Below, piece by piece: positions 1-49,933 of a DNA stretch of 64,000 nucleotides. Source of the DNA: Bacteroidota bacterium (lineage in GTDB: Bacteria; Bacteroidota; Ignavibacteria; Ignavibacteriales; Ignavibacteriaceae); contig JAKAGV010000008.1 in NCBI GenBank assembly GCA_021815405.1, positions 62,001 to 126,000 of the forward strand, given 5' to 3'. The notes beneath the pieces are model-generated. The model was not told where the DNA came from, ran no database searches, and worked only from the letters and a program-made list of their open reading frames with translations. A program made the position numbers and the translations under genes. Positions within the stretch are counted from its first letter, which is position 1. Every line of letters starts with the position of its first letter.

Positions 1-841
1 AATTGCCATTTAAATCAAAAAGTTTTGTAGTTGTATGTTCCCATTGATTAGGGAAAAATGTTGAGTAAAAACTATTTGCACCAAACTTTTTATCGTTATA
101 ACCGAACAGCAAATTTATATTGCTGTTGCTGCTGGTAATGGATGCACCGTATGTGAAATCGGTTATGTCAAATTCAGTGTTGTGCATGTAACCATCAGAC
201 TTCTGCCTTAAAAAAGAAATATGATTACTAAATATGCCAATCGGCATTGAAGCATGAATTAAACCGTCATAATATCCATTCTGTCCCCCGCTTGCTTCAA
301 GAGAAAGTGACTTGGTACTACCCTTCTTTGTAATGATATTTATAATTCCACTGAATGCATTTGCACCATAAACACTTGAACCGGGACTTTTTAGGATTTC
401 TATTCTCTGTATGTCATCCAAAGTTACAGGTAAATTTAAATTATGATGACCTGTCTGAGGATCACTCATGGGAACGCCATCAATCATAATTAAAGTTTCT
501 TCGAAAGTGCCGCCTCTGATACTTACATCCCCTTGAACGCCGTCAACTCCGCGCTGTTCGAAATCAACTCCCCCAGTATATTGAAGCAAACCCTGAACGC
601 TGTTTACCGGCGCATCTTTAATTTCTTGCGGACCAATTACAATAACATCACTTGTTAAGTCAGACAAAGTCATTGGAGTTCTGCTTGCCGTGACTATTAC
701 ATCGTTCAACTGATATTCCGGCAAGACTTGTGCTTTAGTAAAAGCATTCGAATAAAAAAGTATAAGGATAAATAAATAAAAGAATTTTATCTTGAAAGAA
801 TTAGAATTGAGAAAAGACTTTTTAGGTAACCGACTAATCAT
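1..841 (-). CDS. TonB-dependent outer-membrane receptor, N-terminal part (cut by window start)
   Basis: Reading the minus strand from the ATG at 841 gives an open frame to the window edge, about 280 residues. It starts with a basic, hydrophobic signal peptide (about residues 1-38). A TonB-box-like stretch (NDVIVTASRTP) follows, then a plug domain with the usual features: DVSIRGG, an IDGVPM loop, RIEILKSPGSSVYG and AFSGIINIITKKG. The first barrel strands come next. This is the family that imports cobalamin, siderophores or colicin-like ligands across the outer membrane, and the plug is closest in feel to BtuB/CirA-type receptors. The substrate cannot be told from this part. No cobalamin or TPP aptamer is visible in the 153 bases upstream. 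The gene lies downstream of the histidine kinase on the same strand and may be a separate unit. Confidence 0.9.
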   Translation of the reverse strand, partial: MISRLPKKSFLNSNSFKIKFFYLFILILFYSNAFTKAQVLPEYQLNDVIVTASRTPMTLSDLTSDVIVIGPQEIKDAPVNSVQGLLQYTGGVDFEQRGVDGVQGDVSIRGGTFEETLIMIDGVPMSDPQTGHHNLNLPVTLDDIQRIEILKSPGSSVYGANAFSGIINIITKKGSTKSLSLEASGGQNGYYDGLIHASMPIGIFSNHISFLRQKSDGYMHNTEFDITDFTYGASITSSNSNINLLFGYNDKKFGANSFYSTFFPNQWEHTTTKLFDLNGN

Positions 842-994
842 ATTGTTAGTAATCTTTGTTGAATAGATTCCCAACAATAAACATAACTTTTTATCGGTTA
901 TGCGATCTGGCTAACAAAATTTTAAATATAATATTACTGTAAGCTAAGATTTGTAAATGTATCTAACTTAAGGAATAAAAATACATAAGATTAA

Positions 995-3900
995 TTACAT
1001 TTGAAGAGTAAATATCCTATCCAAAGAATCCATCATCTTCTCACGGAATATCGGTTTCGAAATAAAATCCGTGAAGCCGGTGGCGATAAACTTTTCTTTA
1101 TCTCCAGGAAGCACATAAGCCGTTACAGCAATGATAGGAATGTTTTCATAATTCGGCATTTTGTGAATTATCTTAAGCGCATCAAGACCGTTGTATTCTC
1201 CCTGAAGATTTATGTCCATGACGATAAAATCAAAATGATCACTATCAAGTAATGGTAAGGCTTCTTCAAAACTGACTGCAAACTTAATTTCCTTAAGCTC
1301 TTTCATCTGAACTTTAAAAAGAATTTGAGAATCAACTTGGTCTTCAATATATAGGCAGGATAATGATGAAATGTTTAATCGTTCATTTGTTGAAGCAGTC
1401 AACTTAACATTTACAGGCGGCTGAGTATCTTCTAAATTATTTGATTCCTTTTCTTCAAAATTTAAAGGTGCAGACTCTTCAGTTATTTTTGCTTCTATTG
1501 GTTCGAAATCATCTTTCAGATCCTCCATACTATTTTCTTTGACTTGCTCAAAGTCCATAGTATTTAATTTGGTTTCTTCCGGAATTACTTCTTCAGGCTC
1601 TTCTTCCTTTACTAATGAAGTGATGTCTATGGGGAAAAGGAAACCATAATCCATTTTTTCGTTTGATTGAATAAAAACCTGGAACTTACCTTTTAAAATA
1701 GACAGCAGGTTTCTTATTAAGCGTAAGGTCAGTTTGGAAATTCCGTAATTTTTTGAAACAGCATCATTTTCTTGTTCAAATATTGCTTTCAAACTATCAA
1801 GCAAATATTTAGAAACACCAGAATAATTATCTTTGCAGGAAATGATAAAAGTTCCGTCATCATTTTGATAGGCAGAAAAATAAATTTTCTTCTCTTTATT
1901 TAATTGAATAACCGTCCTCATTACCAGAGAAACCAGATTCTGGAATTTCTGTTTATCGGAATTAAATTTAAGTGATGATGAGATTTTCCCATAAGCGAAC
2001 TCAATATTTTTAGCACTTGGAATTTCCTTAAATTCATTATGCAATTGATCAATCACTTCAGTAATACTTATCTCTTCAGGTTTCAATTCATAATTATTTT
2101 CTTTTATGCTTGAATATTCGATGATCGAGTTCATTATATTCAGCAGCCTTGAGCGGTTCTGATTTATTATATCTACGGCTTCTTTTTGATCTTGTGTAGG
2201 TACAGTTATGCTATCTGCTATTTCCTGAACAAAGCCAAGGATAACATTTATAGGAGTTAATATCTCATGAAATAAATTCGGGAGGATGCTAAATTCCTGC
2301 TGCTCTATCTGCGGCTCTACTGCTGGATTTGGTTGTTGAATATAAACTTCCTTAATGACTTCTTTTACTTTTTCTGTAACATGCGGAGTTTTTTCAGGCT
2401 TGCATATAATGCTAAACTCTTCAACTTCACCCTTATAGTTCATTACCGGATAAGCAGTAAGCTCTACAGAAATAAATTCACCGTTTTGCTTCTTTAACTC
2501 TGTACTAATAGTAACTGCTTCTTTTAAATATGATTGAAATACCGAAGAGTTTACAGTCCCCCGGTCATCATTTTTAACAAGAGCATTAAACGAGGAATTT
2601 TCAATTTCTTCTTTAGAATAACCAAGTATCTTTTTTACAGAAGGATTTACAAAAGTAATCAGCCCGATATTGTCTGTAACAAACAGGAGATCATCAGTAT
2701 TATCAAAAGCAATTCTGAAAAGCTGGTTTTTCGTTTCAAGTTCTAAATTATGTGTAACATCCCGGATAATATTAAAATGTGCATCTTTTTCTTTATACTT
2801 AAAATTAATCTTGCTCAATTCTACAAAAATATATGAGCCGTCTTTTTTCTTATGTTTATAAGGACCAGAGAATTTTCCTACTCGTGCAGCAAGCTTGGAA
2901 GAATCAAGCAACGTTTGAATATCTTCAGGTGTATATAAATCAGTCAAATCCATTTGAAGGAATTCATCTTTTCTGTAGCCGTAAAGGTTTAATGCTGCAT
3001 TATTAACCTCAATGAACCTAAGATTTTCTGTGTAATATATGAACATAGGTTCAGGATTATTTTCAATTAGTATCTCAAACATTCTTCCTCTAGAATTAAT
3101 TATATTTTCTAAATTTTCCTCTGTTTTAATATTTTCAATCAGGACTGCAAAACCTTTTGGCTCACCATTATTGTCGGAAATTTTATTTAATGTTATTTCT
3201 TGTTTTCCTATGCCGGTTTTGTTCAGATTATTTTGGATTTCAATCTCAAACTTTTCCGAAGCAGATTGTTGATCCAAAAATTGCCGGATTTTTTCTATTA
3301 TGCTAAAAGAAAATATCTGTCCATAATTGAAATTCCTGAAATCAGAAATTTCACTTAAAAATAATTTACTAAATTCTTTGCTTTGATGCTGTATTATTCC
3401 TTCGTTATCGAAAACTGCCACAGCTTTCGGAAAATTATCTAAAAGATTATAAAATTGCACATTCAAGTCTTTATCGGAATGATTTGCCGTAGACTTTTCT
3501 TTAGGCTGCGCAATACCTACTAATGCGATAACATTATTATCAGAATCGCTTAGCGGGATTTCAATAGTTTGATATTTCTTCGGATCAGCAATACCTGCAA
3601 ATGGAAATCCTTCGAGAACAATACAATTAAGAGTCCCGATTATATATTTTTCGATTGAATTATAAAACTCAACAAGATAAGCAGGCAAAAACGATTTTGC
3701 CGGTTTGCCTTCAATTTGGAAAGGCTTTACTCCAAGATTTTCAGCCAGCTTATTATTTGCAAGCACATAAATATCATTGTTATCCTTCAGCCAGAACATC
3801 TCTTCGAGTTTGTTTATCTCTTTTGTTATCTTTTCTTTGCCAATAAAAGTAAACGGATATAGAGATTTTATTTGTTCAATAATCTCAATTAATAATTTGT

Positions 3901-4357
3901 CAGAAATAATATCTTGAGGTTTTAAAGTCTCTACTTTTATATTTGTAACTTCCCTGATGTCTAACTTAAATTCTTGTTTACGAAATGTACAAAAGATGAA
4001 GACTTCGTTTTCTTCACTATAAGAATTAATAATAACAAAAGCATTAAATTCAGCCCCGCTTTTAAGGTCCAAATGTACATTTTCTGAAACTGGATTATTT
4101 CCTGTAAAAACTTTTTCAATTAGGTCACTCAGTCTTCCGATAGATTGATCGGTGAAAAGATCAAAAATATTCTTTGAAGGAGATTTGATTGAAAAAAGTA
4201 CTTCAGCATTCTTGTTTAGCGATAGGATTTCCCCATTGTGATCGATTACTATAAACGGATCAGATATGTTGGAATTCAGAGAATTAAAAAGTGCATTATT
4301 TATTTTGCGAACCTGTTTCAACTTTTTCCCATAAATACTTTTTTCTTTTATAGACAA
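995..4357 (-). CDS. PAS-domain hybrid histidine kinase with degenerate ATPase domain and receiver domain
   Basis: A 1120-residue cytoplasmic signalling protein with no obvious membrane segment. Several PAS-like domains are visible (about residues 20-125, 180-290, 300-410, 425-535 and 545-655). A charged linker leads to a HisKA dimerisation domain with an intact H-box (HEILTP, H697). The following ATPase region (about 795-915) is recognisable but has lost the N-box asparagine, the DxGxG motif (NYSG in its place) and the GLGL lid (NYGIS). An acidic linker (915-990) leads to a receiver domain (about 998-1115) with complete machinery: E1005-D1006, phospho-acceptor D1048, T1079 and K1101. It follows the polysaccharide locus by 42 bases on the same strand, so it may be co-transcribed with it and act in its regulation. 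Autophosphorylation is doubtful; it may work as a phosphorelay scaffold or depend on a partner kinase. Confidence 0.88.
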   Translation of the reverse strand: MSIKEKSIYGKKLKQVRKINNALFNSLNSNISDPFIVIDHNGEILSLNKNAEVLFSIKSPSKNIFDLFTDQSIGRLSDLIEKVFTGNNPVSENVHLDLKSGAEFNAFVIINSYSEENEVFIFCTFRKQEFKLDIREVTNIKVETLKPQDIISDKLLIEIIEQIKSLYPFTFIGKEKITKEINKLEEMFWLKDNNDIYVLANNKLAENLGVKPFQIEGKPAKSFLPAYLVEFYNSIEKYIIGTLNCIVLEGFPFAGIADPKKYQTIEIPLSDSDNNVIALVGIAQPKEKSTANHSDKDLNVQFYNLLDNFPKAVAVFDNEGIIQHQSKEFSKLFLSEISDFRNFNYGQIFSFSIIEKIRQFLDQQSASEKFEIEIQNNLNKTGIGKQEITLNKISDNNGEPKGFAVLIENIKTEENLENIINSRGRMFEILIENNPEPMFIYYTENLRFIEVNNAALNLYGYRKDEFLQMDLTDLYTPEDIQTLLDSSKLAARVGKFSGPYKHKKKDGSYIFVELSKINFKYKEKDAHFNIIRDVTHNLELETKNQLFRIAFDNTDDLLFVTDNIGLITFVNPSVKKILGYSKEEIENSSFNALVKNDDRGTVNSSVFQSYLKEAVTISTELKKQNGEFISVELTAYPVMNYKGEVEEFSIICKPEKTPHVTEKVKEVIKEVYIQQPNPAVEPQIEQQEFSILPNLFHEILTPINVILGFVQEIADSITVPTQDQKEAVDIINQNRSRLLNIMNSIIEYSSIKENNYELKPEEISITEVIDQLHNEFKEIPSAKNIEFAYGKISSSLKFNSDKQKFQNLVSLVMRTVIQLNKEKKIYFSAYQNDDGTFIISCKDNYSGVSKYLLDSLKAIFEQENDAVSKNYGISKLTLRLIRNLLSILKGKFQVFIQSNEKMDYGFLFPIDITSLVKEEEPEEVIPEETKLNTMDFEQVKENSMEDLKDDFEPIEAKITEESAPLNFEEKESNNLEDTQPPVNVKLTASTNERLNISSLSCLYIEDQVDSQILFKVQMKELKEIKFAVSFEEALPLLDSDHFDFIVMDINLQGEYNGLDALKIIHKMPNYENIPIIAVTAYVLPGDKEKFIATGFTDFISKPIFREKMMDSLDRIFTLQM

Positions 4358-4398: not shown

Positions 4399-5382
4399 TT
4401 ATTGAGACGGAGTTTGGACATAAACTTCATTCGACCACGATGAGTCAATTCCGGAAATTGCTTTTACTCTATAATAATATCCTGTTGAAGGAGTAAGCCC
4501 GTTAGCACTGTCAACAAATTGATTTGCATTCTTATTTGCCAAACCGGCAGTTATGTAATTTGACCAGGTATATCGTCTTTCAATCTTAAAATAATTTTCT
4601 CCGATAACATCATCATTCCATGATAAAACAATTTTTGTGGAGCCGGCGGCAACCGCCTTTAATGCAGTCGGAGGCGCAATTGAATGAGTGGCGCCGTCGC
4701 CATAAGTATTTATTTCATAACTAAAGTTAGAAGTTCCGTATTTATTCAGCGAACGGATTTTATAATAATAAACAGTTGTATCGGCAGCATCATCGTCGTT
4801 AATGTTATAAGTCCCTGGAGGGGCAACCAACTTAAGCATATAACCTCCGTAGAAACCGCGTTTTCTCCAAATTTCATAGCCTGTTTGACCAGCGGCAGTA
4901 GAATCTTTCCACGATAAATTTAATACATTGTTATCTACCCTTAACAGAGAAAAATTATATGGAGTAACAGGCGGAACTCCGGTTATCAAAACATTCTTAA
5001 TAGTGTCGCTTCTTGCTGATGAGCCATCTTTGTCATAATAGATTAGGAAATAGCTTATACGACTGTTTATGTATGTTGAATCGAGTGTAAGCGGAATTGT
5101 AGGTTTTGAACCGTCGCTATTTGCAGGAGTCCATTTATTAATTGCTCCGTTAATATAAAGTTCAACAGCGTATACTCCCATATCGGTAGAAACATTATAG
5201 GAAATATCTGTTCCAGCATAAGCGACCGTATCATTCGACTTCGGGCTGCTTATCTTAACCGCCAGTTTACTGGATGAGGAAGAAGAAGAGCTGGATGGAT
5301 TTAGAAACAGATCGGTACAGCCGGAAATGAAAACAAGCATCGTAGAAAACAAGAGTGCAATATAATAAGACTTCTTTCCCAT
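4399..5382 (-). CDS. FN3-domain lipoprotein of the polysaccharide locus
   Basis: A 327-residue predicted lipoprotein. The signal peptide ends in a lipobox (FISGC, lipid-accepting C22), followed by a run of nine serines as a flexible tether. An Ig-like domain (about 40-130) and two fibronectin type III-like domains (about 140-230 and 235-325) with typical hydrophobic and Tyr patterns make up the rest. No catalytic motif is seen. It sits 12 bases after the deacetylase-like gene, so it is very probably the last member of that operon. An envelope-anchored adhesion or polysaccharide-binding role is an inference from domain type and neighbours. Confidence 0.8.
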   Translation of the reverse strand: MGKKSYYIALLFSTMLVFISGCTDLFLNPSSSSSSSSSKLAVKISSPKSNDTVAYAGTDISYNVSTDMGVYAVELYINGAINKWTPANSDGSKPTIPLTLDSTYINSRISYFLIYYDKDGSSARSDTIKNVLITGVPPVTPYNFSLLRVDNNVLNLSWKDSTAAGQTGYEIWRKRGFYGGYMLKLVAPPGTYNINDDDAADTTVYYYKIRSLNKYGTSNFSYEINTYGDGATHSIAPPTALKAVAAGSTKIVLSWNDDVIGENYFKIERRYTWSNYITAGLANKNANQFVDSANGLTPSTGYYYRVKAISGIDSSWSNEVYVQTPSQ

Positions 5383-5394
5383 TGTTTTTACCGC

Positions 5395-7293
5395 TTAAAC
5401 ATTTGGGACTAAGTAATCGAAATAATAAGTACGGGATTCTCCAGATTGAAGGTCATTCAGGTAAACATAAATGGTTTTCTTTGCCTTATTGTATTCATAC
5501 TTAGCAGGCAATGTACCTATTATTTCGGTACTAAGAGTAATATCTTTTGCAGGCTCGCTCATTTCAACTTCTACAACCAGATTGTTAATAACGTGCTTAC
5601 CAGGATTTGAAACTGTTAAAGCTATTCTCGTTGTACCTCGTTGATTTACTCTTACCTCAACATAATTTCTGCGAGCCCACCAATTTTCTACCTGAGATAA
5701 AGTAGTTATCCAAAAACCTTTTCTCTTAAGATCATCAACTACTTTTTTTACCACCCCTACATTCGAAGGCAAACACTGGTATTCAGTATGAAGCTTGAAT
5801 GTGTACAAGCCGCCTTCAAATAAGATACGATCGATATCTTCCTGATAAGTATAATATTGAAAATCCGGCTCTGTTAATCCAAAATCTCTAATAACTTCAT
5901 AATCATCTCTTCCGGTTTTAGAAATTGAAACAATCAGACTATCGCCTCTAATAATAGTCTTTGGGACTGATCTATCTGAAAGAGAGTCCGTAAAAATGTA
6001 TTTATAATTTCCTTTAATTGCAGAATTAATCGTGTTGGCATCATAAATTCCATAATAAGGCATAACTCCGATCACTGATTGCCCTACTGCGGTTTCAAGA
6101 ATATTTTTTGCGCTAGTCAGTTTTTCAAGTTGTGTATCATAATCATTTAATTTATTTACCGTATCATTTATCGAAGCTAAATAACCAATATCTACTAATG
6201 CACCAATTTCTCCGTATCGAGCAAGCGGTCTCACCAATCCTTTGTCTGACTGAGCTAATGAAGGATCCACAAAAAATGTAGCAGGAATTCTTTCTGCATT
6301 AAGAATTGGTAAAAGGTTATCTATATTCTGCGGGCTTTTCGAAAGCTCTGGTATTACAACGGCTGCAGCAGTATAATTTGAAGGCCAATCTCTTACAATT
6401 GCAATTGGCTGGAAAGATAGCCAACTAAGACTGTTATCAAACAGTCTTTCAAAATAAATATAATCTTCCTGTGCACCGATTACGGAATTGATTTCAAAGC
6501 CCATCCAAACAAATCTTCCTTTGCCATAAGTTCCGTATGCAATGCCTGCACTTTTTCTAATTTCGTCTCTTGAAAGTCCATTCTGAAGCTTGTAGTTATA
6601 CCAAAAGCTTGCCTGTGTTGTTCGCGGATCTAAAACTTCAACAGACATAGGTCTATCCCAAGTAGCAACTCTTAATGGAAAACCTGCTGGAATATTAGCT
6701 GTAATAGGCAAACCTCCGCGAAGTGTGTGAATTTTTGTAATCTCATCCCTTGAAATTTCTTTTGAAAACTTTAGACCAAATACTTCGGATAAAAATTCCC
6801 AACCTCTCCATTTACCATCGTCTGTATACGACGCAGTTCCACTCGTTGCAAATACACTTCCACCATTCTTAAGATATTTCTTAAGCTCAATAATTTCTTT
6901 GTTACTCAAAGACTTTGAGCCCGGCAAGATAATCAACTTATATTTTTTTTCTAATCCGAGTTCAATTGTTGAATCTGCTATTATATCATAAGAATAACCT
7001 GCAGTAGAAAGAAATTTTTTCCATGTTGATATATTATCTGCAAGCCAAGTACTTCCTTGAGGAAGCATATTCTCGGTATACTTTGAATATAATATCGCAA
7101 TAGTGGGTTTTTCGCCATAGAAAATCTCTTTTATTGCTTTCGTATCCGGAAGTAATTCGGCTGTACTAAACCTTCCGTAAACACCACGAAGAATAAAGAG
7201 GTAGATTAATACTGCTCCTATAAGTATTATACCACCAAGCAAAATTATTAGACCTTGATTAACTCCCCCGGTCTTTTTAGTTGCTACCGCCAC
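5395..7293 (-). CDS. Membrane-anchored glutamine-amidotransferase-fold + pseudo-polysaccharide-deacetylase protein
   Basis: A 632-residue protein with one N-terminal membrane helix (about 13-36) and a large extracytoplasmic part. Residues 60-290 look like a class I amidotransferase/ThuA-type Rossmann domain (LIILPGSKSLS, GGSVFATSG, GRFVWMGFEIN). Residues 300-545 follow the order of a NodB-type polysaccharide deacetylase barrel, including ATFFVD and a late FKLHTEY motif. The first-motif Asp-Asp pair (AAVVIPE there) and the metal-binding HxxxH (GEIGALVD there) are missing. A beta-rich tail occupies 550-632. In Pga systems PgaB deacetylates the polymer; here that chemistry seems lost, leaving perhaps a binding or guiding role. 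The start overlaps the end of the upstream small membrane protein gene by 10 bases, which supports one operon. Confidence 0.72.
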   Translation of the reverse strand: MAVATKKTGGVNQGLIILLGGIILIGAVLIYLFILRGVYGRFSTAELLPDTKAIKEIFYGEKPTIAILYSKYTENMLPQGSTWLADNISTWKKFLSTAGYSYDIIADSTIELGLEKKYKLIILPGSKSLSNKEIIELKKYLKNGGSVFATSGTASYTDDGKWRGWEFLSEVFGLKFSKEISRDEITKIHTLRGGLPITANIPAGFPLRVATWDRPMSVEVLDPRTTQASFWYNYKLQNGLSRDEIRKSAGIAYGTYGKGRFVWMGFEINSVIGAQEDYIYFERLFDNSLSWLSFQPIAIVRDWPSNYTAAAVVIPELSKSPQNIDNLLPILNAERIPATFFVDPSLAQSDKGLVRPLARYGEIGALVDIGYLASINDTVNKLNDYDTQLEKLTSAKNILETAVGQSVIGVMPYYGIYDANTINSAIKGNYKYIFTDSLSDRSVPKTIIRGDSLIVSISKTGRDDYEVIRDFGLTEPDFQYYTYQEDIDRILFEGGLYTFKLHTEYQCLPSNVGVVKKVVDDLKRKGFWITTLSQVENWWARRNYVEVRVNQRGTTRIALTVSNPGKHVINNLVVEVEMSEPAKDITLSTEIIGTLPAKYEYNKAKKTIYVYLNDLQSGESRTYYFDYLVPNV

Positions 7294-7790
7294 CTTAAAG
7301 CTCCAACTTCCTTATCTTCTTTTGCAGGCACATAACCCTCAGAGGTATATTTCATAAACTTGGAATCAACCGCTGATTTTTCTTCCGCGGTTAATGGAGT
7401 ATATGCACTTGGTACTTGCTGCTGCCGGACTTGTTGGCTTTGCGATCTTTGATACCCGGCAGTAGTTGGCTGCCCATAAAGTGTATAAGGCTGCGGCTTT
7501 GGTGTAAATCGCGGCTGCATTGGTCTTTGCGCTTCCTGCTGTTGAATAATAATTGGCTGACGTTCTATGTATACCGGTTGAGAAGCAGCTTTTTGCGGTT
7601 CGGTTTGTTTTACTGAAGGTGCTGCTGCCGGTGTTACAAGCTCTGCTTTAACTTCTGTTGCCTGGGGAACAACCGCAGCCTGTCCTTTCCTCTCTCTTAC
7701 TTTATAGAGAATATAAGCGCCAATTGCCAGAAGAAAGGTGCTTATAGTCGCTACCAGAATTATAGTTGACAAAATAGGAATAAGTTCCAT
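7284..7790 (-). CDS. Small bitopic membrane protein, Gln/Pro-rich, of the polysaccharide locus
   Basis: A 168-residue protein that I do not recognise as a named family. One N-terminal membrane helix (about 5-30) ends in a basic KVRERK stop-transfer stretch. A long low-complexity cytoplasmic or periplasmic region rich in Q, P and A (about 40-130) follows. The short C-terminal part is more ordered and contains SAVDSKFMKYTSEGYVPA. The gene lies between the GT2 synthase (27 bases upstream) and the deacetylase-like gene (10-base overlap). It may be an accessory subunit, as PgaD is for PgaC, although PgaD has two helices. Its N-terminal 36 residues resemble the 37-residue peptide encoded at 29951. 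Confidence 0.7.
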   Translation of the reverse strand: MELIPILSTIILVATISTFLLAIGAYILYKVRERKGQAAVVPQATEVKAELVTPAAAPSVKQTEPQKAASQPVYIERQPIIIQQQEAQRPMQPRFTPKPQPYTLYGQPTTAGYQRSQSQQVRQQQVPSAYTPLTAEEKSAVDSKFMKYTSEGYVPAKEDKEVGALRWR

Positions 7791-7817
7791 TACTTACCTC
7801 ATAATGATTATTAAAAT

Positions 7818-9221
7818 TTATGCTTTTGCTGAGCCAACTCTCTCGAGTTTTCCCCATGACATTCTTATACCAATGAACTCTTCGATAGTTGACATAGCTT
7901 TACAAATATCTATAATAAGAATAAAAAACATTCTATAAATTATTGAATATCCGACTAGACGAAATTCTTCCTTCTCAACAGCTATACAATAAAGTGCAGT
8001 AACTAAATCAAGAAGAGCCAATCCCGCCCACCAGAAGAAAATCAATGATGAAAAACCGAAAGCAATAGCAGCAATTATAAAGAACAGATTTGCAGCAATG
8101 TTCATTGCCGGCCAAATTAAAGCTTCATAGAACATTGTCCACAAAATAAAGGTATCACCAAAATTTATGCTCGGATTAAACATTAGCTTTTTATGTTTTC
8201 TTATTGATTGGATAATACCTCTTGTCCATCTATATCTTTGCTTTAACAACTGCTGCAATTTTGCCGGTGCTTCTGTAAACGAAATTGAATTCGGTTCGTA
8301 ATAAATTTTCCATCCGTTAGCAAGAATTTTAAGCGTTAGATCGGCATCTTCAGCAAAGGTATCGCTTGAATAATATCCTGCTTCTTCAATAGCCTTTTTT
8401 CTAAAGAATCCAATAGGTCCAGGAATTATATTAACAAGGCGTACAAAACTCTGAGCGCTTCTTGCCATATTAAGACCTTCAATATATTCCAGTGCCTGAA
8501 GATCTGTAAATAATTTTCCTCTGTTAAGAACCTTAACATTACCTGCAACTGCACCGATCTCTCTATTTGCAAAATGACGAACTGCAAGCTTTACTGAATC
8601 AGGCGATAACTGCGAATCGCCATCCATACAAAGAACTATTTCAGCCTTTGACAATTTTATTCCAGCATTAAGTGCTTTGGCTTTACCGCCATTAGGTTTG
8701 TTAATTAGTGAAACCTTAACATCAGAGTATTTGCCTTTCTGATATCCCACCATAGTTTCGGCAACTTTTTTAGTTTTGTCGGTCGAGCCGTCGTTAATAA
8801 CAATAATTTCATAATTCGGATAATTAAGCTCTAGAAGCGATTTAATGGAATCGAGAACAACTTTCTCTTCATTATAAACAGGAACAAGAATGGAAACAAA
8901 TGGAAAGTATCCGCCTAATGGAACATCATAAGTATACTGATTGATATAGAGATAAGCCATCAAAAGAATGGCAAAATATCTGAATAGGAGGATGAACAAG
9001 AATATAACTAGTGCAACGATTGTAGAATATTCTAAAAGAGATTTTACATCTAAAACTGTTTTCGGCAAAGTATAAATTATTACAAGAATCAGGAAAAGAG
9101 AGATAGCACCATTAATGAGAATCCTCCGTAAATATCTCTGAGAGCTCCCGTTAGTTTGAGATTCGGCTTCGCCGTTTTCCAGGAGAATTTCGGTTCGTTT
9201 TATTTCTTGATTTAATTCCAT
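7818..9221 (-). CDS. Processive family-2 glycosyltransferase (polysaccharide synthase, PgaC/BcsA-like)
   Basis: A 467-residue inner-membrane synthase that would polymerise nucleotide-sugar units and pass the chain across the membrane. Two N-terminal helices (about 33-52 and 66-92) precede the cytosolic GT-A domain (about 105-340). All processive GT2 motifs are intact: D144 (NDGST), the DxD pair D200/D202, E291-D292 (EDADL, the TED equivalent) and Q328-R-Y-R-W332. Three to four C-terminal helices (355-450) would form the channel. There is no PilZ domain, and the length fits PgaC/IcaA-type synthases better than full BcsA. It is the core enzyme of the 4399-15663 locus. The sugar is not determined: poly-GlcNAc is suggested by the size and deacetylase-like neighbour, a glucan by the nearby GH9 enzyme. 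Confidence 0.9.
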   Translation of the reverse strand: MELNQEIKRTEILLENGEAESQTNGSSQRYLRRILINGAISLFLILVIIYTLPKTVLDVKSLLEYSTIVALVIFLFILLFRYFAILLMAYLYINQYTYDVPLGGYFPFVSILVPVYNEEKVVLDSIKSLLELNYPNYEIIVINDGSTDKTKKVAETMVGYQKGKYSDVKVSLINKPNGGKAKALNAGIKLSKAEIVLCMDGDSQLSPDSVKLAVRHFANREIGAVAGNVKVLNRGKLFTDLQALEYIEGLNMARSAQSFVRLVNIIPGPIGFFRKKAIEEAGYYSSDTFAEDADLTLKILANGWKIYYEPNSISFTEAPAKLQQLLKQRYRWTRGIIQSIRKHKKLMFNPSINFGDTFILWTMFYEALIWPAMNIAANLFFIIAAIAFGFSSLIFFWWAGLALLDLVTALYCIAVEKEEFRLVGYSIIYRMFFILIIDICKAMSTIEEFIGIRMSWGKLERVGSAKA

Positions 9222-9662
9222 TATGCATTAGATTATTATTGAACCCGGTAAAACAATTATAATGCCATTTGAAGCATTATTTTACAGCATATAAAAGGCT
9301 TTTTCTAATTAACTAATGTTACACTTTAAGATTAAATAAAAGTCTGTATCAAATTAACTCAAATGAAAAATACCCTTGTAAAAGTAATTTCAATAGGATA
9401 ATTGATTCATAAAATTTTATTGAAAATGCAGCATTCTCGGCACCGGGTTTTCGGCACAAGTAAAACAAAAAATAGTTTTAATTAGAGTTTAAAAAATATA
9501 ATGAAATAATAAAAAATCATATCCCGTATGTCGTGCAACAACTCTAGGATAATGAATTAAAATCAATCTGCCTAATCAAAAAAATTTATTGTCTAAAGAG
9601 ACTGAGTTTTATAAATAAACTCGAATTGCATTGTGATATGAAATTAGCTGGTTAAAAATTAA
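9222..9662 (-). promoter_or_regulatory. 441-base non-coding gap inside the polysaccharide locus
   Basis: No plausible gene is seen. The stretch is very AT-rich and probably carries the promoter of the GT2-led half of the locus. Two copies of TCGGCAC occur close together (about 9434 and 9451). A weak GAGTTT/AAACTC hairpin (9604-9622) lies just past the end of the TPR-barrel gene and could contribute to termination, but it has no clear T-run. I see no known riboswitch. Confidence 0.4.
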
Positions 9663-12533
9663 TTATAACGACCAATAGGCTGAGAACCTAATCATATAAG
9701 AGCTATAACCTGCATAATTGAAGACACTGCTTCCACCGATAATGCTGCCTTGTAATGTAAGTCCGTCTAAAATTCTATAAGTAGCGTTCAAGTATGCCTG
9801 CCTTATGATGTAGCTGCTGTTCGCAACAAAGCCTATCAAACCGCCAATGGTAACAGTTGCTGAAGAATCTCTTACGATATCCCAGTCAGCAAATAAGTTA
9901 TGTGTTGAATAGCCGCTCGGAGAAAAATAAAGTGGTGACGTGAATTGGAAACCGGAACCGAAGTATGCATACCCTAACATAAAATGAGGGTAGAAATATT
10001 TTCCGAGTCTAAATCCTAAAGTGTAACCTCTATTTCCATCAGCAAAACTCATACTAGCTAAATCGAGAGTTGCTCTAAGCCCGGATTTAGTTTGATAATA
10101 ACCACCTGCTCTAAAAAGATCGGCGTTGAGTCGATAGCCTATTAAATATGGAGAATAGATTACCTGAGAAGCATCCATCTTGGAATAGGAACCGTAAATA
10201 GAGTATGAATTAGCAACTTCAGATCGTGCATAAATTTCAGCGACTGGTTGAGTATAAGAGGTGCCATAGTATGCATTCCCAAAATTTACTCCAAGAATCA
10301 AATTTTCCAGCAGCCTTAAAGTAATATCCCATCGATAAGTATTTGAATTGACAATAACCGATCCCGAAGACAATGTAGTTCTAAAACCCTCTGCACCAAC
10401 CGAAAGAAATGAAGTAACGCCTAAGTCTAATCTAAGTCCTTCAATAGAATTTCTCACTCCCTGGTTATCTCCATAATAAGAAGCTGTAGGAGTGACTAAA
10501 GCGTATGTCGGGAAAGTTGAAAGGAAACCATTGAAGCCTGTAACGGGCATCCACTTATATCTTTGATCTACCATTGCTACCTGAGATGAATCCAGTTTCA
10601 AATTTTCTTTCATATTATCATAAACGTCTCTTGCCTTGTTAAATTCATGCATTCGAATGTAAGAATCTCCAAGATACAAGTTTACGTTGAAATTGTCCGG
10701 ATTACTTTTTGCAAGCCTTTGAAATTCTTCGAGTGCCTTTACAGTATCCCCCATCGCAAAGTAAGTTGTTGCACGTGAGTAATCTGCATTAAAATCATAA
10801 CCCTGGCTCAAAACATTATTGTAAGTATCTATCGCTTTCTGATAATCGCCGGCACAGGCAAGGATATCTGCATATTCTTTTTCCATTATAGTATTTGGAG
10901 CTGAGTTTGCCAGGAAGACTTTAAACTTGGCTGCAGCTTCATCGCACTTATGTTGGGCATAAAGATCTTCAGCTTCCTGTAATATAGCGTAATTTTGTTC
11001 CTCTTTGTACCTGAACTTGTTCATCGTAAGAGATGACTGGAGTGCCTTCACATCAGGGCTGTTCGGCTCGATTGCTTTTATTTTATCCATATAATTTTCA
11101 GCAACCTCAAAATTATTTTGCCTCATGCTCAGAGAACTCATTGCAACCATTGCGGCAATATTATGCGGATCCTTTGTCAAAACGTTATTCAAATAAATTT
11201 TTGCAGTATCGAGGTTTTGTCCTATCCACACATCCAACTGAGCAACAAACAATTGATACTCAAGATTATTGGGATCAGAACTAAGCAGCTTTTGCATTCT
11301 ATCAAAGGCTCTGAAATAGTTACGGTTGTTTGCTTCAGCCTTAGCATATTTAAAAAGAACTTCTTTATCTCCGGGATGTCTTTCTAAGTAAGCGTTGTAC
11401 ACCATCATAGTAGAATCATACTCCTGAAGCCTTGAATAATACTGACCGAGCTGAAGGGCAATTTTCTTATCGGAAGAATCAGCCGCAAACTTAGTTTTAT
11501 AATCGGCAACTTGACTTTGATAATATTCTTGGCTTAGAGAATCGGTCTGTGCAGAAATTGCTGCCACCTTGGCAGAATCATACTTATCATTCTGGAGAAT
11601 ACTCAACTGCTGATAAACTTCCTCAAATCGGTTTGCTTTTATCAGAGCATCAATTAATTTAAGCCTTGTATCATCGTCTGAAGGTCTCCTTTTAAGTATA
11701 CTATAATACTTATCAATCGGATAAACAAAGGCTGGTCTTACAGGAGGCATACCGTAATTGAAATGTTTAACTGAAGTGTCATTAACAGTAAAAATGTATC
11801 CCTTGCCTTTAGCCTCGTCTAGACCGTCCATAGCTTCTTTAAAGAAAGGCTTAATGGCGAGAGAATTTTCAAAAGCTTGAATTGCTATTTTTGTTTTACC
11901 CAACCATAAAGAAAAATAACCAAACCTGGACCATATTCTTTGATCATTAGGATATTCTTCAGTATATTTTTTTAAGATAGGCCAGCCTTTCGCAATATGA
12001 TTGTCCTTTGCTAAAATTTCTGTATAGCGGATGATTTCATCCGGTGAAGCATGCGCCATTGTCAAATATTTATCATACCACTCTTCTGCTACCAGCCATT
12101 GACCCAGGTTTTTGTAATCCTTTCCTATCGCCAGATAGTTTTCTGGATCTTTTGGATTTATTGCAATTTCTCTTTTGTATCCTTCTATATCATTATAAAT
12201 AAGTGAATACCAGCTTTTAGTTGCACGTGCTAAATTTGCATTAATCTCTTTATTATTGGGCTCCAGTTTTCTTGCAGATCTATAATCGTATACAGCATAT
12301 TCATACTGTTTCCTTTTTTCGTAACAAAGACCTCTTAAGTTATATCCGTCTGCCTGCTGCGGATGTGCTGAAATATATTTGTTTAGCAAGTCAATTGCTT
12401 CACCATATCTGCCTGATTGCATTTCGTGGAGAGCTTCGTTTTTTTCTTCTTGAGTAACTGACTGTGCAGTAATTCTTATTGAAGAAAAGAAAGCAATGAA
12501 AAGTATAATTGAAGTGACAAATATCTTCTTCAT
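9663..12533 (-). CDS. TPR-repeat outer-membrane beta-barrel protein (PgaA/BcsC-like polysaccharide exporter)
   Basis: A 956-residue secreted protein with a clear signal peptide (about 1-24, ending ITAQS). Residues 25-660 are tandem tetratricopeptide repeats, visible as recurring A-x-x-Y, L-x-x-x-P and P-x-N/D signatures. The last roughly 280 residues (about 675-956) are rich in alternating aromatic and Gly/Ser strands and end in a strand with a terminal aromatic/Leu pattern (FSAYWSL), as expected for an outer-membrane barrel of the YaiO type. This is the architecture of PgaA and BcsC, which carry polymer through the periplasm and outer membrane. It lies 12 bases after the RecA/GGDEF-like gene and 441 bases before the synthase gene. 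The export role is inferred from architecture plus neighbours. Confidence 0.82.
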   Translation of the reverse strand: MKKIFVTSIILFIAFFSSIRITAQSVTQEEKNEALHEMQSGRYGEAIDLLNKYISAHPQQADGYNLRGLCYEKRKQYEYAVYDYRSARKLEPNNKEINANLARATKSWYSLIYNDIEGYKREIAINPKDPENYLAIGKDYKNLGQWLVAEEWYDKYLTMAHASPDEIIRYTEILAKDNHIAKGWPILKKYTEEYPNDQRIWSRFGYFSLWLGKTKIAIQAFENSLAIKPFFKEAMDGLDEAKGKGYIFTVNDTSVKHFNYGMPPVRPAFVYPIDKYYSILKRRPSDDDTRLKLIDALIKANRFEEVYQQLSILQNDKYDSAKVAAISAQTDSLSQEYYQSQVADYKTKFAADSSDKKIALQLGQYYSRLQEYDSTMMVYNAYLERHPGDKEVLFKYAKAEANNRNYFRAFDRMQKLLSSDPNNLEYQLFVAQLDVWIGQNLDTAKIYLNNVLTKDPHNIAAMVAMSSLSMRQNNFEVAENYMDKIKAIEPNSPDVKALQSSLTMNKFRYKEEQNYAILQEAEDLYAQHKCDEAAAKFKVFLANSAPNTIMEKEYADILACAGDYQKAIDTYNNVLSQGYDFNADYSRATTYFAMGDTVKALEEFQRLAKSNPDNFNVNLYLGDSYIRMHEFNKARDVYDNMKENLKLDSSQVAMVDQRYKWMPVTGFNGFLSTFPTYALVTPTASYYGDNQGVRNSIEGLRLDLGVTSFLSVGAEGFRTTLSSGSVIVNSNTYRWDITLRLLENLILGVNFGNAYYGTSYTQPVAEIYARSEVANSYSIYGSYSKMDASQVIYSPYLIGYRLNADLFRAGGYYQTKSGLRATLDLASMSFADGNRGYTLGFRLGKYFYPHFMLGYAYFGSGFQFTSPLYFSPSGYSTHNLFADWDIVRDSSATVTIGGLIGFVANSSYIIRQAYLNATYRILDGLTLQGSIIGGSSVFNYAGYSSYMIRFSAYWSL

Positions 12534-12545
12534 ACAGGATATATT

Positions 12546-13856
12546 TTAATAGAAGCCTAATTTATTAGTTTCCTTTTGGACATCGGTGTTGATTTGCTGA
12601 AAGATGTCGTCTGCGCTCTGCACATTCTCATCAACTCTTACAGTAAATACTGATATATATGGAACAACATTCTTTAAGTAATTAGGATCGTTATTGGGCA
12701 GGTTGCTTTTTACTTTAGCAATTATGCTTGTAATATTTTTAGGATCGTCCTTAGTTACAAGAAGAATGACCTTGTTGCTAAGAACGCAAATCTTATCTTT
12801 TCTATCGGTAGATAACCTTACAGCATTTTGAAGCTGAGTAATTGTCAGCAGCCCTAATTTTTCAGCTGCTGGATCTAATCGGAAAGATATTATGGTAAAT
12901 ATCTGACCAGTGCTTTTAAATAATGCAATCTGATTATTTAAGATTAAATAAAAATCATTTATCGAATAGAAATTTGTAAAAGTAATATTCTCTTCAGGTA
13001 GTTCAATATCAGCCAAAGACTTATATTTTAGATTTTGAGAAGGAGATGACTCTGCCGGTTTTGTTGTATACGTAGTTTTAGGTTTCGGGGGCTTATATTC
13101 AACAGTTATGCCTTTGTATGGTTCAATGAAATAGTTTGCACTGAATTGACCCTCGGTATGACCGATGTTGGGAGTTATCGTCATTACTCCGCCATGAGCT
13201 TTACTGATTTCCTCTTCACCCTTCTGCAGATAAATTATTCCAGTAGAATATGCAGCAAGCGCATCAACAATTGAGTTGGCAAGCGGTGTGGCTGGATCGC
13301 CTATAATAAACAAACTTGATATTCCGTTGTCTTCAATTGCTTCAATGGTATTTACAAAAACATCTTGAAGTAAATTAATATTGTTAAAACCGATGAAAGG
13401 CGTAAGTTCATCAAAAACAATTTTGTTCGGCTGGTATTGTTCAACAACAGTTACAATATCTTTGAGATATTCAACTAAAAAATCGTCAGGATTGCCTACT
13501 TCATAAAGATCGGAAGGAGGTGCTACTCTTACAACAATAATAAGATTTTGATTCATGTAATGCTGAAGATCAAAATCAATAGATGCAGCCTGAATCATTA
13601 AATCCTTAGGTCTCATGCTGGTAAAGTACAAACAGACTTCTTTCTGACTTGCACATTCCATCGCATACTGCAAACCTAACAATGTTCGCCCAGATTTTCT
13701 GGGTCCAATCAGCAAATAAGAACCTCCTCGATAAAATCCGCCCCAAGCACTATCAACGAGTGAGATTCCAGACGGTAAAAGTTGAATTTTCTTTTTCATA
13801 GAATTATTGTGTTTTTTACGTTTTGACCAATTATTATGCCGGAAAAAATTATCCAT
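12546..13856 (-). CDS. RecA/KaiC-like ATPase with degenerate GGDEF-like C-terminal domain (BcsE-like organisation)
   Basis: A 436-residue cytoplasmic protein. Residues 22-250 form a RecA/KaiC-superfamily domain with a Walker A-like loop at 51-58 (GPRKSGRT, with Arg in place of the invariant Lys) and a good Walker B (KIVFDE, D149-E150). A proline-rich linker (255-280) leads to a C-terminal domain (about 297-430). Its strand-helix order matches a GGDEF domain: FTIISFRLD, then a long helix, VLSNKVILLVT at the catalytic hairpin, YISVFTVRV, and SADDIFQQI. The GG(D/E)EF residues are gone. An RKD (352-354) sits near the usual I-site position but is one residue shorter than RxxD. A NTPase-like domain fused to a degenerate GGDEF domain is the layout of BcsE, the c-di-GMP-sensing cellulose-synthesis factor. 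An alternative start is the ATG at 13799. Confidence 0.75.
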   Translation of the reverse strand: MDNFFRHNNWSKRKKHNNSMKKKIQLLPSGISLVDSAWGGFYRGGSYLLIGPRKSGRTLLGLQYAMECASQKEVCLYFTSMRPKDLMIQAASIDFDLQHYMNQNLIIVVRVAPPSDLYEVGNPDDFLVEYLKDIVTVVEQYQPNKIVFDELTPFIGFNNINLLQDVFVNTIEAIEDNGISSLFIIGDPATPLANSIVDALAAYSTGIIYLQKGEEEISKAHGGVMTITPNIGHTEGQFSANYFIEPYKGITVEYKPPKPKTTYTTKPAESSPSQNLKYKSLADIELPEENITFTNFYSINDFYLILNNQIALFKSTGQIFTIISFRLDPAAEKLGLLTITQLQNAVRLSTDRKDKICVLSNKVILLVTKDDPKNITSIIAKVKSNLPNNDPNYLKNVVPYISVFTVRVDENVQSADDIFQQINTDVQKETNKLGFY

Positions 13857-13932
13857 ATATGTGAATTTAACAAATATCCGGCTTATTAACTTGATTTAAA
13901 TAGAGACAAACAAAATGTTTTGTTGCAGAATG

Positions 13933-15663
13933 CTACAAATCATCAGAATAATAACCATATACAAATACTGCCGTGGCATTTCCTATGATTGTCGGTTCAT
14001 TTGTTATATAATTTGACCAATCATCAAAATATTCTACTTCACTTGTATTGAACTGATTGTATCGGCTTTTCATATCTTTCATTTTGAATTGTTTTAATGA
14101 ACTGGCAGGCGCTGGACCAGCAGCCAAAGCACCCGGCAAATATCCGCCATGGAAATAAGCAACTTGTGAATGCAAATGCCTTGGAAAACTCGAACCGATA
14201 TTGTAAATAAAGCTTATTCCCCAGGGATTTCTTCCAAGTACATAATCTCTCTGATCAATAGCTAAGGAATCATACCTGTTGTTTCCGGTTGCGTCCTTAT
14301 AAAGAATTGCCTGCAACGCAGCACCTAAAAAAGAATTTGTACTACCCCAGGAGTATGCCATGGCTTCATTGAATAAAGATGAATCTTTTTTAGTGTTGAA
14401 GAAGATCAGGTTATTTAAAATATATTGAGAATATCTTGGGAATATTTTTGCCAATCTGTAATCAGCAAGCGAATTGATATTACCATAACTCCACCAATAA
14501 TCTGATTTTGCACTATCGGCATAAGCCATTGCTTCGTCTAGATACTTTTGATTCTTAGTAGTTAAGTATAATTCAATTGCACCCAAAGCAAGTTTGCCTT
14601 TATAAGTTACATCTCTATACATGCCGGTTCCGCTAGTGTCGATATCCGGAACATCATTTCTTATTGCATAAAAATTTTCTGCCGCATCTAAGCACTTTTT
14701 GGCGAGATCATAATTATAAAATTTTTCTGCCCAAATACGCGAAGCCAGAGCCATTACTGCGGCATAAATTCCAATTGTGTTCTTCCCAATGCCTACAAAA
14801 CCAACTCGATCATATCTAAGAGAGTCATCTTCAGGCATTCGCCAACCGACTTCATGGTCTCTTAAATCCTGAACTTGAGTAACAAGCTTGTATTTGCTAA
14901 TCGACTCTCCGCTTTTGGGATTATTATAATTACATCTTAGCAGCCAATCAATTCCAATCTTAGCTTCTTCCAGAACATCCGGAACGCCGTTATGATTATA
15001 ATCGAAGCCGTATTTTGCTTTGTCAAAATCATACGAAAAAATCAACATGTAAGTAGTAAAAGCAGTAGTACTTAGAAACTTGATATAATCTCCTGCATCG
15101 TGCCATCCGCCGGTTACATCAACACCGCCGGGATGACTGTTATCGCCAATCAACCTTGAAACATCATATAAATGGCAGACGCCGTGCAAAATTGGATCTG
15201 TAGGTCCGCATCTTTGTTCTCTGAAAAACTGCATTAAAGAGTCAACGACATTGTTATAAATATTCTTTCCAATTTTGAATGGAAAAGAATCAGATCCATC
15301 AACAGAAATTAGATATTTACCTGGTCTTACTATTTTAGAGAAGTCAGCAATGTAACCATATTTGAAGTCGCCGTAATTAAAGTCTGATTTTTGCAGTTCG
15401 TCAATCAGTACTACTTTACCGCCATTAAAATCTTTAACTGAAAATTTCTTAGCATAGATTGGATTTTCTGAAAACACCACAGCAGTCTTCATATCATCCG
15501 GCAAATATCCAACTTGATTAGCACGTATATAAATTTTATTTGAAGGAATTGTTGCCGCACAATTATAAAATACAAAAGGAATAAAAATTATAGGTAATAG
15601 AAATTTTCTAAAATGAGTAATTTCGTTAAGAAATGTATTAATCCAGGACTTTCTTATAACCAC
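13933..15663 (-). CDS. Glycoside hydrolase family 9 (endoglucanase-type), probable lipoprotein
   Basis: A 576-residue enzyme. The N-terminal hydrophobic stretch (about 20-34) ends at C35 in a poor lipobox (VFYNC), so it is either lipid-anchored or simply secreted. An Ig-like CelD-N domain (about 43-130, IRANQVGYLPD) precedes the (alpha/alpha)6 catalytic domain. That domain contains GGWHDAGDY (nucleophilic-water Asp pair D189/D192), the GRNPWG...PRHLHSQ substrate region and the C-terminal TNEPT with the general acid E556. GH9 enzymes cleave beta-1,4-glucans or related beta-linked polymers. It starts the run of same-strand genes leading into the polysaccharide locus (76 bases before the RecA/GGDEF-like gene). 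It could trim the nascent polymer as BcsZ does, or degrade external cellulose. Confidence 0.88.
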   Translation of the reverse strand: MVIRKSWINTFLNEITHFRKFLLPIIFIPFVFYNCAATIPSNKIYIRANQVGYLPDDMKTAVVFSENPIYAKKFSVKDFNGGKVVLIDELQKSDFNYGDFKYGYIADFSKIVRPGKYLISVDGSDSFPFKIGKNIYNNVVDSLMQFFREQRCGPTDPILHGVCHLYDVSRLIGDNSHPGGVDVTGGWHDAGDYIKFLSTTAFTTYMLIFSYDFDKAKYGFDYNHNGVPDVLEEAKIGIDWLLRCNYNNPKSGESISKYKLVTQVQDLRDHEVGWRMPEDDSLRYDRVGFVGIGKNTIGIYAAVMALASRIWAEKFYNYDLAKKCLDAAENFYAIRNDVPDIDTSGTGMYRDVTYKGKLALGAIELYLTTKNQKYLDEAMAYADSAKSDYWWSYGNINSLADYRLAKIFPRYSQYILNNLIFFNTKKDSSLFNEAMAYSWGSTNSFLGAALQAILYKDATGNNRYDSLAIDQRDYVLGRNPWGISFIYNIGSSFPRHLHSQVAYFHGGYLPGALAAGPAPASSLKQFKMKDMKSRYNQFNTSEVEYFDDWSNYITNEPTIIGNATAVFVYGYYSDDL

Positions 15664-49744: not shown

Positions 49745-49933
49745 TAAAAAAAGCCGTTGGTCCAAATCCCAATTGCTCGGGACGGTGAAACGGCTAAAAC
49801 TTAATTATTCTTTTAGCCCGTTTCCCTACGCTGGCATTATCCAGATCAGGTCTTAGGGTTTTTCTCAGTCTACCACAATTAAATCCCGGCACAAGTCGAG
49901 ATATAACCGGGGAAACACCCCTAACGGCTATCG
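49745..49933 (-). promoter_or_regulatory. TPP riboswitch with downstream terminator
   Basis: On the minus strand the aptamer (about 49931-49814) contains the THI-box core: AGGGGTG, CTGAGA, ACCCT, then ACCTGATCTGGATAATGCC and AGCGTAGGGAA. An extra GC-rich hairpin (CCCCGG/CCGGG) extends the P3 arm between AGGGGTG and CTGAGA. P1 is formed by TAGCC...GTT at the 5' end with AA(C)GGGCTA at the 3' end. Next comes GGCTAAAA, which can pair with TTTTAGCC. The latter leads into a terminator stem AGCCGTT/AACGGCT (49789-49795 with 49752-49758) followed by seven T. With TPP bound, P1 uses GGGCTA, freeing AGCCGTT for the terminator; without it GGCTAAAA-TTTTAGCC acts as antiterminator. The receptor ATG lies 16 bases after the T-run. 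Confidence 0.96.

Follow-up and report, generated by a model that had tools for sequence, protein, structure and literature searches.

Closest described systems

Several exopolysaccharide systems contain parts that resemble the locus described here. In Pel, the synthase and transporter are PelF and PelG. In Escherichia coli-type cellulose (Bcs) systems BcsZ belongs to glycoside hydrolase family GH8, and in Pga/Ica (PgaABCD) the PgaD protein has two transmembrane (TM) helices. BcsE has been described as beginning with a RecA-like domain, modelled after KaiC and diverged in its Walker A motif, and continuing with REC-like and degenerate GGDEF domains (PMC7439463). PelA comprises, in succession, a hydrolase, an alpha/beta, a deacetylase and a beta-rich domain; the alpha/beta domain has been likened to ThuA and IFT52 and suggested to bind carbohydrate or PelB, and a catalytic Asp, an Asp-His-His metal triad and an acid His are named for the protein (PMC12022489). 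In the Listeria Pss system (PssA-E), a PgaC/BcsA-like family 2 glycosyltransferase (GT2) goes together with a partner whose GGDEF domain is degenerate (PMC4125290). Here we describe a gene block in a 64,000-nucleotide stretch, the window, which covers positions 62001-126000 of one contig of an Ignavibacteriales genome (GCA_021815405.1, 4.97 Mb in 31 contigs). Judged by its sequences, this gene set most likely serves to synthesise and export a sugar polymer. It probably represents a separate type of synthase-dependent exopolysaccharide secretion system, with a five-gene core and with Pel-, Pga- and Bcs-like features, distinct from all three.

The block shares with Pel a protein with ThuA-like, NodB and beta-rich periplasmic parts, a TPR/barrel exporter and a regulator with a degenerate GGDEF-like domain. 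It differs in its GT2 synthase, which is the only glycosyltransferase of the block and thus leaves no PelF/PelG pair, in the absence of a hydrolase domain and of deacetylase metal-site motifs, and in the KaiC fold of its regulator. Like the E. coli-type Bcs system, it has a RecA/KaiC-like and GGDEF-like regulator, a small partner with one TM helix, a TPR/barrel protein and a glucanase-type hydrolase. However, the synthase has no PilZ domain and is not of the BcsA type, the regulator model has no REC domain between its two parts, the hydrolase is a GH9 and a BcsB match is lacking: at E 1, none was obtained for the deacetylase-like, small, FN3, KaiC and GH9 proteins, nor was there one among the matches listed for the kinase, TPR and GT2 proteins. 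Pga/Ica has in common with the block a PgaC-like GT2, a TPR/barrel protein, a NodB-fold protein and a small membrane protein, but here the synthase falls outside the PgaC clade, the pseudo-deacetylase is not PgaB-like and the small protein has one TM helix. Listeria Pss likewise pairs a PgaC/BcsA-like GT2 with a degenerate GGDEF partner. It differs in that PssD is BcsB-like, PssE binds cyclic di-GMP (c-di-GMP) and the host is Gram-positive, so that there is no outer-membrane barrel.

Ignavibacteria have been reported from anammox granules and subsurface waters. A literature search, made mostly without full texts and with subscription journals largely outside it, found no account of this locus and no exopolysaccharide genes described for the class. 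Term searches of main texts gave no Ignavibacter, Chlorobi, Melioribacter or KaiC in a survey of synthase-dependent operons (PMC7112194), and no 'exopolysaccharide', 'glycosyltransferase' or 'di-GMP' in the Melioribacter roseus genome paper (PMC3534657).

Conservation of the gene block

All seven minus-strand open reading frames (ORFs) that the first-pass annotation had placed at 4399-15663 were found there, in the transcription order GH9, KaiC-like, TPR, a gap of 441 bp, GT2, small protein, deacetylase-like and FN3, followed by a PAS hybrid kinase (Table 1). Families were assigned with Pfam/NCBIfam models. At E 0.001, the deacetylase-like protein was matched in 59 out of 294 genomes of the class, 54 of these being among the 59 genomes of the order; the remainder comprised one strong (G131) and four weak matches. 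We compared 54 loci, 53 from the order plus G131. In the order loci, GT2, small and deacetylase-like genes were always present, followed by TPR (51), KaiC (50), kinase (50), FN3 (48) and GH9 (45), and part of the absences correspond to contig ends. The genes present lay on one strand and in one order in 53/53 loci, with all eight genes in 40, and the small gene overlapped the deacetylase-like gene by 10 bp in 52/53. A shared order and overlap of this extent are not due to chance, which confirms that the block is real and conserved as an operon. It extends into the hybrid kinase, so that the seven genes initially delimited are indeed conserved together but are not the whole unit. G131 encodes the TPR, GT2, small, deacetylase-like, FN3 and GH9 proteins, with no KaiC match in its stretch. 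Two loci labelled Tenericutes MAG22 (L223, L224) carry the full Ignavibacteriales-type operon and are probably mislabelled or from a mixed bin.

Among 395 genomes searched across the phylum, 54 matched a profile of the KaiC protein at E 1e-20; 16 of the matching genomes lie outside the class. Thirteen non-order loci, chosen by their KaiC match, were examined. The core, comprising KaiC, TPR, GT2, small gene (or an ORF in its place) and deacetylase-like gene, was present in six (L159, L160, L162, L163, L164, L167), where the place of the small gene is taken by a small gene, an unassigned ORF or a barely scoring ORF. Four others end at contig ends, L171 after GT2 and L161, L165 and L170 earlier. 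A scan of named genomes retained 80 of 89 relatives. Of these, 64 are close and in most cases labelled Ignavibacteria(les), Melioribacter(aceae) or simply Bacteroidetes; the other 16 (L236-L251) are distant, with Rhodothermales or Bacteroidetes as the usual label. Six of these 16 Rhodothermales-type loci contained the full core in the same order (L236, L237, L243, L247, L249, L251), L238 contained it without a small-gene match, and nine were partial, many through a contig end. None of the 16 had a GH9, FN3 or kinase match of at least 40 bits. As the distant loci stop near the deacetylase-like genes, the downstream side was examined in five non-order genomes (19.9 kb each); no FN3 or kinase match was found there at E 0.001, and four of the five had a second deacetylase-like gene. 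Since GH9, FN3 and kinase were not found near Rhodothermales-type loci, the core is taken as KaiC, TPR, GT2, small protein and pseudo-deacetylase, and the other three, two of them part of the original seven-gene set, look like order-level additions.

The GT2 synthase

The window GT2 scored 203 bits with the PgaC_IcaA model, under half of its cut-off (422.3), and 71 bits with the CelA model, far below its cut-off (699.1), and contains no PilZ domain. It is therefore assigned neither to the PgaC/IcaA family nor to the BcsA-type synthases. Against a model built from order members, 18 GT2s of the system scored 581-898 bits, five NodB-GT2 fusions 238-277, a Halorubrum protein 225, three PgaC proteins 180-206, NodC 124 and two BcsA proteins 36-42. 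All 18 system GT2s read contain QRYRW. In a tree of 35 rows, the system GT2s formed one clade (100/99), separate from PgaC (100/97), the NodB-GT2 fusions (97/90) and BcsA (100/99); the deep branching order of this tree is weakly supported, nine reference rows are long-branched and PgaC is represented by three references. A further GT2 of the window's own genome (C23, 671 aa) is not among the rows of the tree. By these scores, the synthase is far nearer to the PgaC type than to BcsA and not midway between Pga and Bcs. Of the double resemblance to PgaC and BcsA first suggested for it, the PgaC side is by far the closer.

The first-pass annotation had read the block as a possible new type of exopolysaccharide locus with a mixture of Pga-like and Bcs-like parts, and had named two findings that would speak against this: neighbours not conserved together in relatives, or a synthase firmly inside a Pga or Bcs family. 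Neither was observed, as the genes are colinear throughout the order loci, the core recurs in Rhodothermales-type loci and the synthase forms its own clade, which supports that reading in part, as regards an exopolysaccharide-type locus belonging to neither Pga nor Bcs. A separate Acinetobacter record (L262) shows an arrangement reminiscent of Pss, with a PgaC-like GT2 next to bcsB and to a gene for UDP-GlcNAc 2-epimerase.

The pseudo-deacetylase

The deacetylase-like protein contains a ThuA/GH42M-like domain followed by a NodB fold (29 bits, cut-off 23). The predicted structure (pLDDT 88) consists of a TM helix, a domain at residues 60-295, the NodB domain and a beta-rich end. Domain 60-295 resembles GH42 trimerisation/GATase folds (Z up to 20.7, root-mean-square deviation (rmsd) 2.9, 206 aligned), and the NodB domain gave Z 25.1 (rmsd 2.4, 239 aligned). 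Foldseek matched PelA (9cgy) over 700 columns (E 9.4e-11) and NDST1 over 570 columns (E 1.6e-11). ThuA matched a paralogue in L163 (E 5e-4), and matches to IFT52 were weak (E 0.14 and 0.53). The model and the Foldseek match thus give the PelA-like domain order, with the hydrolase domain missing.

TFDD and HxxxH are absent from the catalytic places in 55/55 proteins, two rows having a 'DD' shifted downstream, while a His at the place of the acid is retained in 54/55. Alignment A2 took 46 of the 55 proteins and the motif counts were redone on all; their correspondence to PelA was aligned by eye. Without these metal-site motifs, the protein qualifies neither as an active PelA deacetylase nor as an active PgaB-type de-N-acetylase, and the name pseudo-deacetylase that it had been given is appropriate. 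The absence of the Asp and His-x3-His motifs together with the retained His suggests a binding or scaffold role. Comparison with one E. coli PgaB sequence showed no PgaB likeness (hhalign E 0.23). The predicted structure points to a PelA-like rather than a PgaB-like protein, contrary to the earlier proposal that it indicates Pga. A second, diverged paralogue lies directly downstream of the first in L044, L045, L048, L077, L083 and L276-L279.

The putative KaiC-GGDEF-like regulator

Residues 22-258 of the regulator adopt a KaiC fold in the model (Z 27, rmsd 2.4-2.9, 216-220 aligned). Among the 51 order proteins, 45 have Arg in place of the Walker A lysine, five have Lys and one is unread; Arg also occupies this place in 12/12 rows of a wider alignment. 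The Walker B Asp-Glu pair is invariant in the order alignment and altered in eight distant rows. Alignment A1 took 46 of the 51 order proteins, and counts were redone on all. Additional KaiC-like copies are encoded upstream of the block's KaiC gene in L042, L043 and L044.

The C-terminal domain was more difficult to assign. None of 23 order members matched a GGDEF model at E 10, and hhalign comparisons with a degenerate GGDEF alignment and with E. coli DgcT were not significant, DgcT being colinear over 126 columns (E 0.074). Among Rhodothermales-type orthologues, 12/13 C-termini matched GGDEF_2 at E 1 or better (best 9.1e-5), one member reaching 21.3 bits, below the curated cut-off of 24.5, and 4/13 matched PelD_GGDEF at E 1 or better (best 0.0012). 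The Rhodothermales-type C-terminal profile (A7, built without L237) aligned with the window-type profile over 129 columns (probability 95.3%, E 2.4e-8). Profile A7 found nothing in PDB sequences and, when compared with the degenerate GAF-GAF-GGDEF profile of the order, gave no significant alignment (probability 0.6%, E 0.1). Searches by fold, run with the complete model, were taken up by KaiC rows, placing the C-terminal domain outside their reach. Given the GGDEF_2 matches, the profile-profile alignment and the succession of secondary-structure elements in the model, with direct matches absent, the GGDEF-like assignment holds by transitivity. The first description of a RecA-like and GGDEF-like protein is thereby refined in its first half to a KaiC fold and sustained in its second by this indirect route, the direct tests not being significant.

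The regulator thus shows the BcsE-type combination of RecA-like and degenerate GGDEF domains, with no REC domain between the two parts of the model; hhalign of the KaiC family against one E. coli BcsE sequence gave E 0.4. The I-site motif RxxD was found in 0/51 order proteins (that of L069 read by eye) and occurs at that place in 11/13 Rhodothermales-type orthologues.

c-di-GMP in the hosts

Each of the 59 order genomes contains exactly one match to PF00990 (GGDEF). It lies in a GAF-GAF-GGDEF type protein (open frames of 618-664 aa), for example in L098 (C12:85355-85816) and L099-L128. GG(D/E)EF occurs in none of the 28 proteins read, all of which are degenerate (31 loci in hand, three not parsed). 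PilZ was absent from all 59 genomes and EAL from the window's own genome, the one order genome searched for it. In a control on 14 known genomes, GGDEF was found in eight, PilZ in five and EAL in six. The 16 non-order genomes with a KaiC orthologue gave a single GGDEF match (G440) and no PilZ. G440 encodes an intact GGDEF-EAL protein, so c-di-GMP may exist in some hosts. We considered a joint loss of the RxxD I-site and c-di-GMP in Ignavibacteriales and rejected it, because 15 of the 16 non-order KaiC genomes likewise lack GGDEF and none has PilZ, yet RxxD is frequent there.

Going by these gene inventories, a BcsE/PelD-like regulator seems to operate in hosts that probably lack c-di-GMP, which raises the question of what a GGDEF-derived exopolysaccharide regulator does where c-di-GMP enzymes are lacking. 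The window's own genome encodes a diadenylate cyclase, which makes cyclic di-AMP (c-di-AMP) a candidate ligand and no more. We tentatively consider that the lineage may have lost, or never had, c-di-GMP while still running its synthase with a KaiC-GGDEF-like regulator, whose GGDEF-like domain would sense another ligand, possibly c-di-AMP, or act by assembly alone; BcsE would then be a late relative of a KaiC-derived regulator.

Small protein, probable exporter and accessory genes

No credible family was found for the small 168 aa protein in Pfam/NCBIfam scans. Across 19 rows that reach from Ignavibacteriales to Rhodothermales-type loci, the helix of this protein (MELIPILSTIILVATISTF...) hardly varies; a variable linker comes next, and then the motif KYTSEGY / EYTDEGF. 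Basic residues after the helix suggest, by the positive-inside rule, a cytoplasmic tail. The protein may be an analogue of BcsF by role.

Over the last 300 aa of the TPR protein the beta moment is larger than the alpha moment, whereas the TPR part shows the opposite, and the last residue is F/L/Y/W in 48/51. With its barrel assigned by residue pattern, the block unites in one operon a membrane GT2 and a TPR/barrel protein, the pairing that marks synthase-dependent exopolysaccharide systems.

In GH9 proteins of 450 aa or more, HDAGD is present in 45/46 and the NE motif with the acid in 44/46. The position that we take to be the HHR site of cellulases reads HHQ or HSQ in 43/46 relatives, so the substrate may not be plain cellulose. 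An SGNH gene lies between TPR and GT2 in 21 of the 51 order loci having both, counted by similarity (a stricter motif gave 6/51), with GDS and DxxH in 21/21. In the window genome, an SGNH homologue (47% identity) is encoded elsewhere (L266:9021-12255), adjoining what by eye appears to be an MBOAT acyltransferase gene. The SGNH gene hints at O-acetylation of the polymer.

Proposed function and alternative explanations

In the arrangement of contacts, transport, polymer and regulation that we propose, the GT2 would polymerise a nucleotide sugar and thread the chain across the inner membrane. The helix of the small protein would lie beside the synthase and its cytoplasmic tail would dock the KaiC-GGDEF-like regulator, as BcsF for BcsE. 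Anchored by its N-terminal helix, the pseudo-deacetylase would hold the chain without deacetylation and then deliver it to the TPR scaffold and the barrel in the outer membrane, as has been proposed for PelA/PelB. GH9 might trim the polymer, the SGNH/MBOAT pair may O-acetylate it and the hybrid kinase could set expression. A nearly order-wide polymer system would thus be added to Ignavibacteria, in which parts usually known as packages come apart: a non-catalytic scaffold of the PelA kind, a synthase from the Pga side and a regulator resembling BcsE.

An amino-sugar system of the Pga or chitosan kind, with a relative of PgaC making a poly-GlcNAc-type polymer, would explain why PgaC_IcaA is the best equivalog model and why NodB-GT2 fusions score highest among the outside GT2s tested. 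It is nevertheless rather doubtful, given a score so far below the PgaC cut-off, a tree position separate from PgaC, and a NodB domain with neither metal-site motifs nor PgaB likeness. We also judge it unlikely that the locus is a divergent Bcs-like cellulose system, its GT2 making beta-1,4-glucan, GH9 replacing BcsZ and the KaiC protein serving as BcsE. The intact catalytic motifs of GH9, the TPR/barrel plan and the shared RecA-like and degenerate GGDEF architecture of BcsE (PMC7439463) agree with it, as does the hhalign comparison of the KaiC family with a seven-row BcsE alignment, whose match is weak but colinear over 167 columns (E 0.0095, probability 4.3%). In addition, the M. roseus genome paper names a 58 kDa GH9, Mros2241, which may or may not be the GH9 of this locus, as a likely cell-bound enzyme degrading carboxymethylcellulose (PMC3534657). 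However, BcsA scores below PgaC with the synthase model and belongs to another clade, PilZ is missing from the GT2 and from the order, and the deacetylase-like protein has no BcsB match. The same source reports that M. roseus breaks down cellulose with cell-bound enzymes (PMC3534657), as would suit a cellulose- or hemicellulose-degrading locus around GH9 with the other genes for uptake or sensing. This is very improbable, since no GH9 match accompanies the core in Rhodothermales-type loci and its GT2 is of the processive type, with QRYRW in all 18 members read.

A separate type of exopolysaccharide system remains the reading that we favour, and several points weigh against it. Neither a polymer nor a mutant nor a complex is known, the barrel assignment rests on residue patterns, and the alignment with PelA (TMq 0.29, rmsd 17.3) falls short of a rigid superposition. 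Five of the 59 order genomes lack the deacetylase-like protein. One order genome, G211 (L169), has a variant locus with KaiC, a short TPR-like gene of 507 aa, a weak, divergent GT2 of 449 aa, the small gene and the kinase, with no deacetylase-like gene and no GH9 match. Three of the 13 non-order KaiC orthologues (L166, L168, L172) have no core alongside in the stretch examined, and the small-gene match is missing in L238 and L159 and reaches 16 bits in L160.

Features of the locus and its surroundings

Table 1. Features of the gene block and of the adjoining kinase gene, in window coordinates
Feature	Coordinates	Strand	Evidence or remarks
GH9 glycoside hydrolase with CelD_N Ig-like domain	13933..15663	-	259 and 61 bits; both catalytic motifs present
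KaiC/RecA-fold protein, Walker A changed (K to R), with C-terminal GGDEF-like domain; putative BcsE-like regulator	12546..13856	-	KaiC ATPase 67 bits; model; profile alignment
Exported TPR protein, probable C-terminal outer-membrane beta-barrel (PgaA/BcsC/PelB plan)	9663..12533	-	TPR matches; residue patterns
441 bp gap, site of SGNH hydrolase gene (~410 aa) in 21/51 order loci	9222..9662	-	
Processive-type GT2 synthase, motifs DGS, DGDS, EDAD, QRYRW	7818..9221	-	
Small 168 aa protein with a highly conserved TM helix and a conserved C-terminal motif, joined by a variable Q/P-rich linker; putative regulator dock	7284..7790	-	
Membrane-anchored PelA-like pseudo-deacetylase: TM, ThuA/GH42M-like, NodB fold without metal-site motifs, beta-rich end	5395..7293	-	
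FN3-repeat protein, apparent lipobox ISGC (by eye)	4399..5382	-	
PAS hybrid histidine kinase with receiver domain	995..4357	-	After the block in 50/53 order loci

Rfam gave no match in the locus at gathering thresholds. Upstream of GH9, hemF-like and nuo-like genes were read from translations, without a family search. On the other side, window positions 1-843 (minus strand) contain the start of what by eye appears to be a TonB-dependent receptor gene. Elsewhere in the window, a thiamine pyrophosphate (TPP) riboswitch lies at 49806-49932 on the minus strand (65 bits).

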